Shown here piece after piece: positions 1-9,046 of a DNA stretch of 28,815 nucleotides; positions within the stretch are counted from its first letter, which is position 1, and every line of letters starts with the position of its first letter. Both the position numbers and the translations under genes were made by a program. The notes under the pieces were generated by a model. It ran no database searches. It saw only the letters and a program-made list of their open reading frames with translations, and was not told where the DNA came from. The stretch is from positions 1-28,815 of the IMG/VR virus record IMGVR_UViG_3300042806_000277; one strand, written 5' to 3'. This DNA is from a virus.

Positions 1-1
1 C

Positions 2-196
2 ATTCTGCGCGGCGCCATTCTGTACGGCGCCATTCTGCGCGGCGCCATTCTGCGCGGCGCCAATCTGTACGGCGCCAATCTGCGCGGCGCCAATCTGTAC
101 GGCGCCAATCTGAGCGGCGCCAATCTGAGCGGCGCCAATCTGTACGGCGCCAATCTGAGCGGCGCCAAGCTGCGCGGCGCCATTCTGAGCGACGCC
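2..196 (+). repeat. Tandem 15-bp coding repeat (about 13 units)
   Basis: Units of the form (A/C)ATCTG(C/T/A)(G/A)CGGCGCC are repeated head to tail with few differences. They encode the pentapeptide repeats. Identity at DNA level, including synonymous positions, suggests recent unit duplication. Unit number may vary between relatives. Confidence 0.9.
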
Positions 197-493
197 AAGG
201 GGTTGCCAATCGCTGCAGATCATCTGCAGCGGCTGCGTGCGGTTGCCAGTGAAGTGCTGTCCAACCCTCAAAACCTTCACATGACAAACTGGCATAACGA
301 GTGCGGTACTACTCATTGCCTGGCAGGGTGGGCTATTCACCAGGCTGGACCGCTAGGTGAAGTCTTGGAGAAACTTCATGGCCCACACATGGCTGGATTG
401 CTGCTGTTAGGCGTTGATGCTGCTGAGCACTTCTACGACAAGAAGGACGACGCCATTGAGTGGCTGCAGTCCGTTGCACAGGAGGCGGCATGA
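2..493 (+). CDS. Pentapeptide-repeat protein, 5' end cut by the window
   Basis: About thirteen near-identical 15-base units (2-196) encode consecutive A(N/I/K)L(R/Y/S)G pentapeptides, which fold into a right-handed quadrilateral beta-helix in this family. A C-terminal domain of about 95 residues follows. It contains [11 protein letters not shown], then LLLLG, and ends in a WLQSV helix. I recall this tail on other phage and cyanobacterial pentapeptide-repeat proteins, but its function is unknown to me. The reading frame is open from base 2, so the N-terminus lies upstream. The stop overlaps the next start (GCATGA). Pentapeptide proteins can mimic DNA or act as scaffolds, but nothing here shows which. 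Confidence 0.85.
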
Positions 494-6161: not shown

Positions 6162-6701
6162 TCAGGCGATTTTCCAGCTGCGGCGCTCGACCAGGGAGCA
6201 GCCGTCGATCTGCTCTCCGGCCTTGAGGGCAGCCTTGATCGCGGTCTTGTTGGCTTCGACCTTGACCCGTGCGAACTGGGCGGGTAGCTCCTCAGCTGGG
6301 GCGTCAACGATCACCGACTCCGTGCGCCGGCTGGTGATCTTGTGCTCCGGCAGGTCGTACCTCGTGGCATCGGGATCGACGCGCTGCAGCGCCGCAATCA
6401 GTCGATCCTGCAGCGCATCCGCCTGCTGCTCATCAGCGGCGGCCAGCTCTGCCAGCGCCTGAGCGCGAGCCTTGCGGGCATCACGCCGGGCGCGGATGGC
6501 GTCGATCACCCAGCACCAAGCGTCGGCTTTGGCCTCGACAGCGCGGCGGTTGTCAGCCTCAGCTGAGATCAGGCCCTCCAACGTGGCGGTGGCCGCGGCC
6601 ACTACGTCGGGATCGTCGGAGAACAGGTCAACGGCGGCGCTGTCGATCTGCTGCTGCAGGCGGAGGGCGTCGCCGGTGAGGTCGTAGAGAGTGGTGGTCA
6701 T
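6162..6701 (-). CDS. Siphovirus Gp157-like protein, 179 aa
   Basis: Start at 6699-6701 (MTTTLYDLTGDALRLQQQID). The layout matches the Sipho_Gp157 family: an N-terminal helix, a long coiled coil over about 40-110 with several EA/AE repeats, then a short beta-containing C-terminus (TRYDLPEHKITSRRTESVIV, GCSLVERRSWKI). In known phages these proteins sit with single-strand annealing or replication genes; their exact role is unclear. Here it heads the minus-strand early operon and diverges from the sigma factor. No Erf, RecT or SSB gene is present in this window. Confidence 0.7.
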   Translation of the reverse strand: MTTTLYDLTGDALRLQQQIDSAAVDLFSDDPDVVAAATATLEGLISAEADNRRAVEAKADAWCWVIDAIRARRDARKARAQALAELAAADEQQADALQDRLIAALQRVDPDATRYDLPEHKITSRRTESVIVDAPAEELPAQFARVKVEANKTAIKAALKAGEQIDGCSLVERRSWKIA

Positions 6702-6786: not shown

Positions 6787-7749
6787 GTGCCAGCCAGCTC
6801 CAACCAGTCCTGGTGGCTTGACAGCATCGGGCGCATACCGCTGCTCACACCTGCTGAGGAAATTGAGCTGGGCACTGCGATCCAGCGGTGGCAGACCCAC
6901 CCCGACCCGTGCCCGCCCGGGATTCGCAGACGCGGCATGCGGGCGCGTGATCGATTCGTATCAGCCAACCTGCGGCTGGTGATCAGCTACGTCACCCGGC
7001 ACTGTCACCGGCTGGCGAAGAACCACTCAGTTGAGGACCTGACGCAGGCGGGCAACATGGGGCTGATCACTGCTGTAGAGCGGTTTGATCCAACAAAGGG
7101 GTACCGGTTCTCCACCTATGCGTATTGGTGGATCCGGCAGTCGATCAACCGATGGGTCGATCAGCACGGCCGATCAATCGCCATCCCCGGCAGCCACTGC
7201 CAGCACCTGTCAAAGCTGGCAGGGATCACGCGGCGATTAGAACGCGAGCTGAATCGTGCACCTACTCACCAGGAGCTGGCGGCCGAGCTGGGGGTGAGCA
7301 TGCGGGTGCTGCAACAGGTGATTGAGAACGGCCGGCCGATTGGCAGCCTGGATCAGGTGGTGACCGATGACGGCCTTGAACTAGGCAGCACGGTTGCAAC
7401 GTGGGATCGATCACCAGAGGATGAAGAGGAGCAACGTGAGCGGTGGCGGCAAGCGGAGCAGCTGCGCGGGTTGATTGCTCGACTGCCGGCATCAGATCAG
7501 CGGCTGCTGTCTCTGGCGTGGGGCCTTGACGGTGTTGAGGTGCCCCGCTCTGAGCTAGCAGCGAAGGAAGGCGTGAGTGTGCGGGTGCTGGAGAGCAGGT
7601 TAGAGCGGCTGCAGGCGTCACTGGCAGCTGAAGCGGTGCAGCTGGTGTTGGTGGCAGTAGCGCGGGTGCCGGTGCGTGTGGTGAAGCGTGCTAGGCGCTG
7701 CCGGCGTCGCGTGGTGGTGTTCCTGCAGCTGGTGCTGGAGGTGGCGTAA
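6787..7749 (+). CDS. Sigma-70 family RNA polymerase sigma factor, 320 aa
   Basis: Redirects RNA polymerase to particular promoters. Region 1.2 is at about 8-35 (LDSIGRIPLLTPAEEIELG). Region 2 is at about 52-145, with SANLRLVISYV, EDLTQAGNMGLITAVERFDP and the -10-reading STYAYWWIRQSINRW. Region 3 is at about 146-205. Region 4 is at about 222-278. Region 2 is well conserved and cyanobacterial-looking. Region 4.2 has lost the usual SRERVRQIE recognition helix (here SVRVLESRLERLQ), so -35 contact should differ or be weak. Odd: residues 280-320 form a tail alternating hydrophobic and Arg-rich segments (VKRARRCRRRVVVFLQLVL), not part of the family. Starts with GTG. Placement between phage modules suggests control of late or accessory genes. 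Confidence 0.88.
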   Translation: MPASSNQSWWLDSIGRIPLLTPAEEIELGTAIQRWQTHPDPCPPGIRRRGMRARDRFVSANLRLVISYVTRHCHRLAKNHSVEDLTQAGNMGLITAVERFDPTKGYRFSTYAYWWIRQSINRWVDQHGRSIAIPGSHCQHLSKLAGITRRLERELNRAPTHQELAAELGVSMRVLQQVIENGRPIGSLDQVVTDDGLELGSTVATWDRSPEDEEEQRERWRQAEQLRGLIARLPASDQRLLSLAWGLDGVEVPRSELAAKEGVSVRVLESRLERLQASLAAEAVQLVLVAVARVPVRVVKRARRCRRRVVVFLQLVLEVA

Positions 7750-7812: not shown

Positions 7813-7837
7813 GAAAAGCCCGGCGCTGTGGCCGGGC
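7813..7837 (-). terminator. Rho-independent terminator for the minus-strand gene
   Basis: On the minus strand GCCCGGC (7837-7831) and GCCGGGC (7824-7818) form a 7-bp GC stem with a 6-base loop, followed by TTTTC. It lies 22 bases after the stop at 7859, a classic intrinsic terminator, and also separates the minus-strand transcripts from the convergent sigma gene. Confidence 0.8.
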
Positions 7838-7858: not shown

Positions 7859-8116
7859 TCAGCCGGAGAAGCTGTAGGTTTCGCGGCCGTTGGTGCCCCA
7901 CACGCTCCAACGGGAGTGGTGCTGAATGTCGGTGTTCCGGGAGATCAGCGCGTCGGCGTAGCGGACGGCGAGGCGCTCGACGTAGCCGCCTTCAATGAAG
8001 CGGCGAACGATGAATGCGCGGTCGATGTAGCCGCCGGAGGCCAGGACGGCGAAGATGCCGGAGACCACGAGCTTGGCGCGGGGGCGGTCGAAAGCGATGG
8101 GGTTGATGGTGGTCAT
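7859..8116 (-). CDS. Small hypothetical protein, 85 aa (moron-like)
   Basis: Function not recognised. Start at 8114-8116 (MTTINPIAFDRPRAKLVVSG). A hydrophobic stretch (LVVSGIFAVLASGGYI) could be a buried strand-helix or a weak membrane segment. The rest is a mixed charged domain (DRAFIVRRFIEGGYVERLAV, then RWSVWGTNGRETYSFSG). It has its own terminator downstream and a promoter-like element upstream shared with the 64-aa gene at 8469, so it looks like a self-contained accessory unit. Confidence 0.65.
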   Translation of the reverse strand: MTTINPIAFDRPRAKLVVSGIFAVLASGGYIDRAFIVRRFIEGGYVERLAVRYADALISRNTDIQHHSRWSVWGTNGRETYSFSG

Positions 8117-8208
8117 GGCTGGCGGGTGGCGGTGGAGGCGTTTCCCTCCGATGCCCATACTGTAACCCGTGGGGCACACGCTGACAACCACCACGGCGGA
8201 CGGTTCAC
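8117..8208 (-). promoter_or_regulatory. Promoter/leader-like element, copy A
   Basis: Minus-strand order: GTGAAC (8208-8203), 37 bases, then TTACAGT inside the 19-mer GTGCCCCACGGGTTACAGT (8177-8159), then GCATCGG and a hairpin GGAGG/CCTCC just before the gene at 8116. A TTGTCA box lies 17 bases before TACAGT, a plausible sigma-70 promoter. Copy B, upstream of the gene at 8663, has the same 19-mer, the same 37-base spacing and the same hairpin motif. Confidence 0.55.
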
Positions 8209-8417
8209 GGATCGTCACGTTTCCGCTGTCTTGCCACCCTCTCGCGGTTCCACTCCCGGCCAGCTGGTGTCAGCTTCCAGCACTGGGAACACAGCGGCGC
8301 GGTGCGGTCGCTGATCACGGTGCGGCCGCACTGTGGGCAGGTGGGCAGGGCGGGGAGCTCACCCGCCAGGCGTAGGCGATAGCGGGCGACCTTCTCGCGG
8401 GATGGTTGGCGGGGCAT
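8205..8417 (-). CDS. Zinc-ribbon small protein, 70 aa
   Basis: Two CxxC pairs, Cys27/Cys30 (CPQCG) and Cys43/Cys46 (CSQCW), make a treble-clef or rubredoxin-like zinc knuckle. Both flanks are Arg/Lys rich (KVARYRLRLAGE, RERVARQRKRDDP), suggesting nucleic-acid binding. Start at 8415-8417. It follows a 51-bp gap containing a stem-loop (8438-8454). Function not assigned; a transcription accessory role is possible given the nearby sigma factor. Confidence 0.7.
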   Translation of the reverse strand: MPRQPSREKVARYRLRLAGELPALPTCPQCGRTVISDRTAPLCSQCWKLTPAGREWNRERVARQRKRDDP

Positions 8418-8437
8418 AGCGTGGCGAGTGAATGACT

Positions 8438-8454
8438 GCCGGATGGGCTCCGGC
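8438..8454. other. Perfect stem-loop between two small genes
   Basis: GCCGGA and TCCGGC flank a 5-base loop. No T-run follows on either strand, so it is not an obvious intrinsic terminator. It could be a transcript-stabilising or processing hairpin. Confidence 0.35.
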
Positions 8455-8468
8455 GGGCCGTGGGTGGG

Positions 8469-8663
8469 TCAGGCGTAGCTGGTTTGACCAACGCAGACAA
8501 GATAGGGGCCCTTCTCTTGCATGATGTCTACATTGGTCATGTATCCCATGTCGTAACACTCTTCGCTGATGATGGATGCTTTTTTATGAGCATCTGAGTA
8601 GCTGCCGTGAATGGTGGTGCTCATCCAGGGAGCGGATTGGCAGCGGATGTCGTAGCGGGTCAT
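8469..8663 (-). CDS. Small hypothetical protein, 64 aa (moron-like)
   Basis: Function not recognised. Start at 8661-8663 (MTRYDIRCQSAPWMSTTIHG). Beta strand, a Lys/Ser-rich helix (SYSDAHKKASIISEECYDMG), then strands (MTNVDIMQE, PYLVCVGQTSYA). Codon use is visibly more AT-rich than the neighbours (AAA, TAT, TTT and ATA-type positions in 8500-8590), hinting at separate origin. It is preceded by promoter-like copy B and a 125-base structured leader. Confidence 0.65.
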   Translation of the reverse strand: MTRYDIRCQSAPWMSTTIHGSYSDAHKKASIISEECYDMGYMTNVDIMQEKGPYLVCVGQTSYA

Positions 8664-8818
8664 GGCTGTCAGTGGCGATGGAATGGAGCGGGGATTGCCG
8701 ACGATCTGGCAGGCTCCCCGTGGGCCAGGGGCCGGAGCCCCGGAGGAGGCTTCCCTCCCGATGCAATCACTGTAACCCGTGGGGCACCACCTGGCCGCCC
8801 ATCATCGGGTCAGTTCAC
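8664..8818 (-). promoter_or_regulatory. Promoter/leader-like element, copy B, with a long GC-rich leader
   Basis: GTGAAC at 8818-8813, 37 bases, then the 19-mer GTGCCCCACGGGTTACAGT at 8787-8769, then GCATCGGGAGGGAAGCCTCC with a GGAGG/CCTCC hairpin. Unlike copy A, about 80 further bases separate it from the ATG, rich in self-complementary runs (GGGGC/GCCCC, GGCTCC/GGAGCC). No -35 consensus at 17-base spacing (CGGCCA). The leader could be a cis-acting RNA; no known riboswitch consensus was matched. Confidence 0.5.
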
Positions 8819-8824
8819 AATCCG

Positions 8825-9046
8825 TCACCTGCTTATCGCCAGCTCCACCTCCAGGTGGCGCACGCGGCCCAGCAGTCGATTGATCATTTCCTGCTGCTGG
8901 TACCACGACACGATCAGGTCGTCTGCCTTGATATGCAGCTCATCACGTGTCATGCGCGCCGCGGCGCGCCGGTCCCGTTCCATCTCCAGCTGGGTCGGCA
9001 GGCTGAGATCAGGAATCAGCCAGCCCGCATCCGTTGCACCAGCCAT
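8825..9046 (-). CDS. Small helical protein with NblA (ycf18)-like residue spacing, 73 aa
   Basis: The core reads LSLPTQLEMERDRRAAARMT, then RDELHIKADDLIVSWYQQQE, MINRLLGR. NblA proteins, small helical-hairpin phycobilisome-degradation adaptors, typically show LSL, then an M-S pair 16 residues later, then LL 25 residues after that. The same spacing is seen here (LSL, MT at +16, LL at +25), with Gln/Glu-Met near the usual position. It then adds a heptad-like extension (RVRHLEVELAISR). Several freshwater cyanophages carry nblA, so the idea is reasonable, but identity is by eye only and a generic phage coiled-coil protein is the main alternative. Start shared in a CCATGG with a plus-strand gene; no Shine-Dalgarno. 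Confidence 0.5.
   Translation of the reverse strand: MAGATDAGWLIPDLSLPTQLEMERDRRAAARMTRDELHIKADDLIVSWYQQQEMINRLLGRVRHLEVELAISR

Follow-up and report, generated by a model that had tools for sequence, protein, structure and literature searches.

A recurrent promoter-like cassette of freshwater cyanophages resembles host psaD promoters in its layout

Introduction

Repeated phage promoters and start cassettes are already known. The cluster K mycobacteriophages, a single phage group, carry short repeats ahead of unrelated non-structural genes, namely the SAS, a 13-mer proximal to the ribosome-binding site, and the ESAS, a 17-bp inverted repeat, which are nearly absent from the hosts and sometimes overlap an upstream stop codon (PMC3203893). 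The late promoters of T4, served by gp55 and the sliding clamp, have no -35 and consist of a -10 only (PMC2988020); gp55 bears a clamp-binding motif on a variable linker (PMC2988020), such motifs taking the form QLxLF or QLxLxL (PMC4564189). Phage morons are autonomously transcribed cassettes in which small accessory genes with a promoter of their own are swapped between phages. At the RNA level, 5'-terminal stem-loops stabilise bacterial mRNAs such as those of ompA and papA, according to works cited in PMC3997798. Finally, the host regulator RpaB binds the HLR1 sequence KTTACAWW-N2-KTTACAWW, a 10-bp direct repeat, and activates from about -66 to -45 (PMC13421787).

Here we analysed a window of 28,815 bases, IMG/VR virus record IMGVR_UViG_3300042806_000277, whose nearest cultured phage at the sigma factor gene is Synechococcus phage S-LBS1 (77%-identical sigma). 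A prediction made from the letters of the window had noted one 19-mer ahead of two minus-strand genes close to this sigma gene and had read it as part of a common promoter with TACAGT as -10, a -35 that is poor or absent in copy B, and a hairpin in the leader, a promoter which the phage sigma might serve. We found that the observation holds and is larger than first described, and that its interpretation is supported in part: the shared promoter reading gained support, and the phage sigma was not established as the reader.

Results

The 19-mer, GTGCCCCACGGGTTACAGT, is present in the window exactly twice (Table 1), and 100 dinucleotide shuffles gave no occurrence at up to 3 mismatches (0 expected). 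Reading of the sequence bore out the further details of the original prediction, since in both copies GTGAAC lies exactly 37 bases ahead of TTACAGT, GCATCGG is followed by a stem of the GGAGG/CCTCC type, and CAGCCATGACC, common to both leaders, spans the start codons at 8116 and 8663. The -35 is indeed missing from copy B, because CGGCCA stands at the place that TTGTCA occupies in copy A, and TTGTCA/TACAGT of copy A is the sole sigma-70-like site found. The two genes behind the copies are unrelated to each other, and the region runs in the order copy B, gene B, 70-aa ORF, copy A, gene A and terminator-like hairpin. The extent of the unit had to be revised: the 19-mer is real, but the conserved unit is about 100-170 bp long and starts at 8218 and 8828, and GTGAAC is only a piece of a longer box, the second TGA of which is, in copy A, the stop codon of ORF 8417-8205. 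An Rfam search gave no match of the element to a known RNA family, and a tRNA search found none.

Table 1. Coordinates of features in the window and, where a record is named, in related phage records
Feature	Coordinates	Strand	Remarks
Copy A upstream box GTGACGATCCGTGAACCGTCC	8198..8218	-	-66 to -46; two GTGA half-sites 10 bp apart
Copy A -35-like TTGTCA	8182..8187	-	17 nt ahead of -10; not kept across the wider family
Copy A 19-mer	8159..8177	-	End of the lineage-specific spacer, then extended -10 GGGTTACAGT with its hexamer at 8164-8159
Copy A predicted start A (8152) and 5'-end hairpin GGAGG-GAAACG-CCTCC (8149-8134)	8134..8152	-	Start predicted from geometry
Gene A, 85 aa	7859..8116	-	Without family match; the S-H1 homologue stands behind a sister element belonging to S-H1
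Intrinsic-terminator-like hairpin and T run, 3' of gene A	7818..7837	-	Two in region against 2.1 expected: weak alone
Copy B upstream box GTGACGGATTGTGAACTGACC	8808..8828	-	-66 to -46
Copy B 19-mer	8769..8787	-	End of the spacer, then extended -10 with its hexamer at 8774-8769; CGGCCA in place of a -35
Copy B predicted start A (8762) and two leader hairpins (+4 to +19, +22 to +35)	8728..8762	-	
Gene B, 64 aa	8469..8663	-	Without family match
Second ORF behind copy B, 70 aa	8205..8417	-	Zinc-ribbon match, weak and below the cut-off
Phage sigma factor, 320 aa	6787..7749	+	Convergent neighbour; regions 1.2, 2, 3 intact; 4.2 diverged; C-terminus ...QLVLEVA; candidate reader only
S-H1 sister elements	L057: 3574, 3898, 7104, 8271, 14002, 21065, 21479		
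KBS-S-2A sister elements, two	L134: 13905, 20095		
Clamp-binding-like sigma C-termini	window 7660-7746; L129, L131, L126, L122, L123		Motif match

A scan of 2.9 million viral contigs recovered the exact 19-mer in 11 other contigs, with 1-2 copies each, in all of which similarity runs from about 60 bases upstream down to the start codon. When only the upstream part was used as a query (GTGACGATnTGTRAACYGnCC), more phages appeared in which the spacer is wholly different and the box, the distance, the -10 and the leader are the same. Since other phages keep all these parts around a different spacer, by sequence comparison the 19-mer is the spacer and -10 of one lineage and not the general element. 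The latter consists, in order, of the box (-66 to -46, 21 bases), 33 nt, an extended -10 GnGyTACAGT, 6 nt, an A, a hairpin, the leader and the start codon. Scanning for the box, 33 nt and TAnnnT gave 44 stretches, while the box with no downstream condition occurred 54 times, followed by TAnnnT exactly 33 nt on in 41 cases and at 36 nt in three identical alleles; the remaining 10 lie in unrelated sequence, have no leader and look like chance matches. Core-only and box-only scans recovered each other's half. In a logo of 20 clusters the box is nearly invariant, T-12, A-11 and T-7 stand at 100%, -16G at 94% and -14G at 95%. The scan patterns partly ascertain the letters of the box and of TAnnnT, but neither -16G and -14G nor anything downstream. 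The same 20 clusters show no conserved -35 hexamer 16-18 nt before the -10 (less than 0.8 bit per position), TTGCCA or TTGTCA at that place being confined to part of the 19-mer lineage.

In total, about 60 copies of the cassette were found, spread over several dozen freshwater cyanophage contigs of IMG/VR. A 257-Gb set of bacterial and archaeal genomes contained zero matches to the box, 33 nt and TAnnnT, and a matrix scan found no element in S-LBS1, S-CBS1 or S-CBS3. Within single lineages, GTnnCCCnnGGGnnAC of the 19-mer seemed to make an appealing operator palindrome, an idea that was rejected, since over 11 spacer lineages the best centre was paired at 0.40 against 0.40 in permutations.

The predicted leader hairpin was examined in 34 distinct leaders, in which the stem almost always begins at about +4 (+1 being 7 nt after the hexamer), the loops are 3-8 nt long and often purine-rich tetraloops, and the stem sequences are entirely different from leader to leader, as in GAACCG/CGGTTC, GGAGG/CCTCC and GGGGC/GCCCC. 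Among nine equal-length leaders, pairing is seen in 98% of cells and 14 changes are double-sided, a level reached by 0 of 500 shuffles; this covariation is the cleaner test, because the leaders are related and the P value combined over all 34 therefore overstates the case. The single-sequence folding energies of the two window leaders were unexceptional against shuffles, so that the case for the hairpin rests on comparison. Some leaders, that of copy B among them, have a second hairpin, and the start codon then lies near +100. A C/A-rich stretch ends in the usual start context CCAGCCATGACC, with no Shine-Dalgarno sequence nearby. As a separate observation, host psaA leaders (loci L276 and L277) also seem to open with a GC-rich stem (GGTCCCC..GGGGCC) a few nt past the likely start.

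The position of the cassette is strongly biased to gene starts, as the original prediction had expected: 59 of 60 elements have a downstream ORF, with the ATG mostly 33-45 or about 100 nt past the predicted +1. On the other side, the upstream ORF ends within the box, on one of its two TGA triplets, in 43 of the 60. The 59 downstream ORFs, with a median length of 74 aa, fall into 41 unrelated families with almost no known function among them, the exceptions being one match each to AcrF31, DnaJ and DUF932. The AcrF31 match (anti-CRISPR F31, Pfam, E 1e-10, above the curated cut-off) is a 65-aa ORF on the minus strand (L059:8293-8487). Since AcrF31 and DnaJ matches stand behind the cassette, the remaining families are candidates worth testing. 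The same gene family can stand behind different leader types, element classes and positions; a family opening with MT(T/A)FTLERAE..., for instance, was seen behind a marine box class in L141 and L143 and behind the freshwater class in L011. We also observed that the S-H1 homologue of gene A (L017:4959-5207) is encoded antisense to the annotated CDS AZB50557.1, an annotation that is probably wrong.

The box is a direct repeat with a period of 10 bp, TGTGAC-N4-TGTGAA, although the T at -67 is present in only 45%. OmpR-type regulators bind direct repeats of this kind, with a 10-bp period. Read on the other strand the box is KTYACA-N4-KTCACR, which departs from the strict HLR1 consensus in having KTCACA for KTTACA in most copies; one perfect HLR1 half-site occurs, only in the copy-A-type boxes with GTAAAC. 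Counted from the predicted start, the box lies at -66 to -46, as compared with about -66 to -45 for HLR1. Because RpaB binds a 10-bp direct repeat and activates from a similar position, we examined the promoters of psaD, a photosystem I gene under RpaB control, at loci fetched with a PsaD query that was used for fetching only. In 72 picocyanobacterial genomes these promoters have TGTTGACGGG/TGTGAAG in common, and TGTTGACGGGTGTGAAG is shared upstream of psaD. They contain TAGCTT or TACTTT within GTGCTA, 46-47 nt from the start of TGTGAA, where the phage distance is 45, so that the -10-like GCTAnnTT is 1-2 bp further from the box than in the phages, and their first half-site is TGTTGAC, shifted by one base, in place of the phage TGTGAC.

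When host loci of high GC were scored with a matrix built from the phage elements only, the psaD promoter came first in 26 of 50 (2.3% expected for each) and was among the top three in 43 of 50, although 26 of 50 comes near to a single evolutionary observation because the psaD genes are orthologous. Elsewhere, scores of at least 12 occur at 28 per Mb, which corresponds to a chance of about 0.006 in one 200-bp upstream region. Conversely, a layout pattern derived from psaD matched once in each of three whole host genomes, at the psaD promoter sequence only. The host psaA promoters have the same HLR1-like ingredients at a different spacing; the comparison covers psaA and psaD, since at the psaL loci the longest ORF was not psaL and the promoter was not readable. 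The half-site repeats of the phages (TGTGACNNNNTGTGAAC, up to 2 mismatches) stood near the control level in five host genomes, with no clear genome-wide excess. On these sequences, the box appears to resemble RpaB-type promoters in its way of working, and we do not claim membership of the HLR1 family for it. We found no report of RpaB sites in cyanophages in the open-access literature.

The sigma ORF of the window matches Pfam Sigma70_r2, r3 and r1.2 and not r4, and alignments to solved cyanobacterial SigA stop before region 4.2, in agreement with the altered region 4.2 described before. Sigma homologues were detected in 18 of the 21 element-bearing records of at least 25 kb, and 37 of 44 elements lie within 3.5 kb of one, a co-occurrence that is suggestive, although the records share ancestry; some of these homologues are merely 22-30% identical. 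One sigma clade has a diverged region 4, and in another this region is unrecognisable. For the window sigma, prediction from the single sequence gave a structure of poor overall quality (pLDDT 49), in which the region-4 part has confident helices; prediction for the divergent clade was of low confidence, so that a region 4 fold may still be present there. Beside the sigma gene, window positions 6162-6701 (minus strand) encode a Siphovirus Gp157 / Mu Gam-like protein, which is also present in S-LBS1, and at window positions 1-225 tandem repeats of 15 bases (5 residues), cut by the contig end, look like a pentapeptide-repeat protein.

A marine sister class, alike in architecture but with another box, was found in S-H1 and KBS-S-2A, both cultured phages of Synechococcus WH7803, and further elements of this class occur in viral contigs. 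S-H1 has no sigma and at least 7 sister elements (AAACCkGCACAC..., about 32 nt, MATAMT), of which some are followed by a hairpin leader, and the element class as a whole therefore needs no phage sigma. It is possible that a different activator serves the marine class.

The C-terminal peptides of the cyanosiphovirus sigmas, which follow a variable linker, include QLVLEVA, QLGLLV and QPSLF, and, in the cultured S-CRES1/3 and KBS-S-2A, QGSLF and QLPLIP. By motif match only, 10 of 46 sigma sequences have QLxLxx or QxSLF among their last 12 residues, as against 0 of 1951 other ORFs, and we found no report of a clamp motif on cyanosiphovirus sigma factors in the open-access literature. The sigma of S-CBS2 (L130:1159-1779) seems to be truncated at its C-terminus relative to that of S-CRES1/3 (RVPQGRC end), possibly through a frameshift or a sequencing error.

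Discussion

To account for the cassette, its spacing and -10, the covariation of its hairpin, its bias to gene starts and its similarity to psaD promoters, all of which come from sequence comparison, we propose an activator-dependent promoter joined to an mRNA-stabilising leader, which would mimic host RpaB-activated photosystem I promoters and probably express early accessory genes; we put the probability of this reading at slightly under one half (about 0.48). An activator would bind the box at -66 to -46 as a tandem dimer on the two half-sites 10 bp apart, and would recruit RNA polymerase to the extended -10 (GnGyTACAGT) with no usable -35. The transcript would begin with an A about 7 nt past the -10 and fold at once into a 5'-terminal hairpin that may slow 5'-end-dependent decay, as for ompA, and the unstructured C/A-rich stretch would lead to CCAGCCATGACC, where translation would begin without a nearby Shine-Dalgarno sequence. 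RpaB, an OmpR-type regulator of the host, or one of its paralogues would be the likeliest activator, since the position of the box, the repeat period and the whole layout match psaD promoters. A promoter addressed to host RpaB and host RNA polymerase would be usable from the start of infection, and we infer early timing because the element is host-readable and its genes are small and accessory. The outcome may be that unmodified host polymerase expresses small accessory genes immediately and in tune with light or redox state.

The reader of the box could instead be encoded by the phage, with host sigma or phage sigma serving the -10. Such an activator would fit the lack of the phage pattern in all bacterial genomes searched and its difference from strict host HLR1, and the separate box of the marine class is what would be expected if each phage group owned its activator. 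We regard it as doubtful, since a scan of the neighbouring genes of the window gave no DNA-binding activator candidate, and since a single box kept across phages whose sigmas are 22-30% identical would be explained more easily by a conserved host protein.

That the neighbouring phage sigma reads the promoter, its region 2 taking TACAGT and its altered region 4 dispensing with a -35, was the suggestion of the original prediction. Sigma homologues lie near most elements, their diverged or unrecognisable region 4 would fit the missing -35, and it is S-H1, the phage without a sigma, that has the more TATAAT-like -10 (MATAMT). However, proximity can reflect a stretch of genome inherited in common, S-LBS1 combines a 77%-identical sigma with zero elements, the large records G027, G032 and G038 have elements and no detectable sigma, and host psaD has a similar -10 with no phage sigma involved, all of which makes this reader unlikely. 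As psaD promoters have a similar layout and need no phage sigma, host RNA polymerase with a host activator would be the simpler and better-supported reader.

Like T4 late promoters, the cassette has no -35, and the sigmas near elements often combine a reduced or altered region 4 with a clamp-binding-like C-terminal motif on a variable linker; unlike them, it has a conserved upstream box at fixed spacing, and elements also occur where there is no sigma. It is improbable, though suggested by these motif matches, that the element represents a second case, evolved independently outside the T4 family, of transcription coupled to replication, in which a sigma whose -35 recognition is missing or rewritten would link polymerase to the beta clamp of the host and fire these -35-less promoters, and the box would add site specificity. 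Most improbable is a recombination linker or translation-start element akin to SAS, kept for the swapping of gene cassettes and not a promoter, which would suit the recurrence of gene families behind different leader types and element classes and the upstream stop codons in the box, but leaves unexplained the exact 33-nt spacing with its variable interior, the -10-like hexamer and the covarying hairpin at a fixed distance.

Returning to the proposed mimicry of RpaB-activated photosystem I promoters, the phage and host promoters share a 10-bp direct repeat, at about -66 to -45 if the predicted start of the phage transcripts is right, the lack of a conserved -35 and, in the psaD type, an extended -10-like GCTA...T at a near-equal distance (host gap 34, phage 33), whereas the phage half-sites deviate from HLR1 and the phage copies precede unrelated small genes. 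As with SAS/ESAS of cluster K, short repeats nearly absent from hosts stand before unrelated genes of one phage group and may overlap the upstream stop codon; here, however, the unit is a fixed-spacing promoter with a predicted 5'-terminal hairpin, the start context is CCAGCCATGACC and not GGGATAGGAGCCC a few nt before the start, and the spacer contains no palindrome. The predicted stem-loop lies at most about 3 nt from the predicted 5' end with its sequence free to vary, as in ompA and papA. Like morons, the cassette gives small accessory genes that are swapped between phages a promoter of their own, but one promoter identity serves many unrelated genes, and a terminator is not shown for most. 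In the open-access literature we found no phage cassette that is like a light-regulated host photosystem promoter, carries a covarying leader and precedes dozens of swapped genes.

The cassette offers a finder for small phage effector genes, the sister elements of the cultured S-H1 and KBS-S-2A make transcript mapping feasible now, and the clamp-motif matches on the sigmas make replication-coupled transcription beyond the T4 family testable. If the box is an RpaB-type site, phages would have borrowed the host photosystem I switch for accessory, probably host-takeover, genes, and a concrete, mutable DNA element would tie phage expression to the light and redox state.
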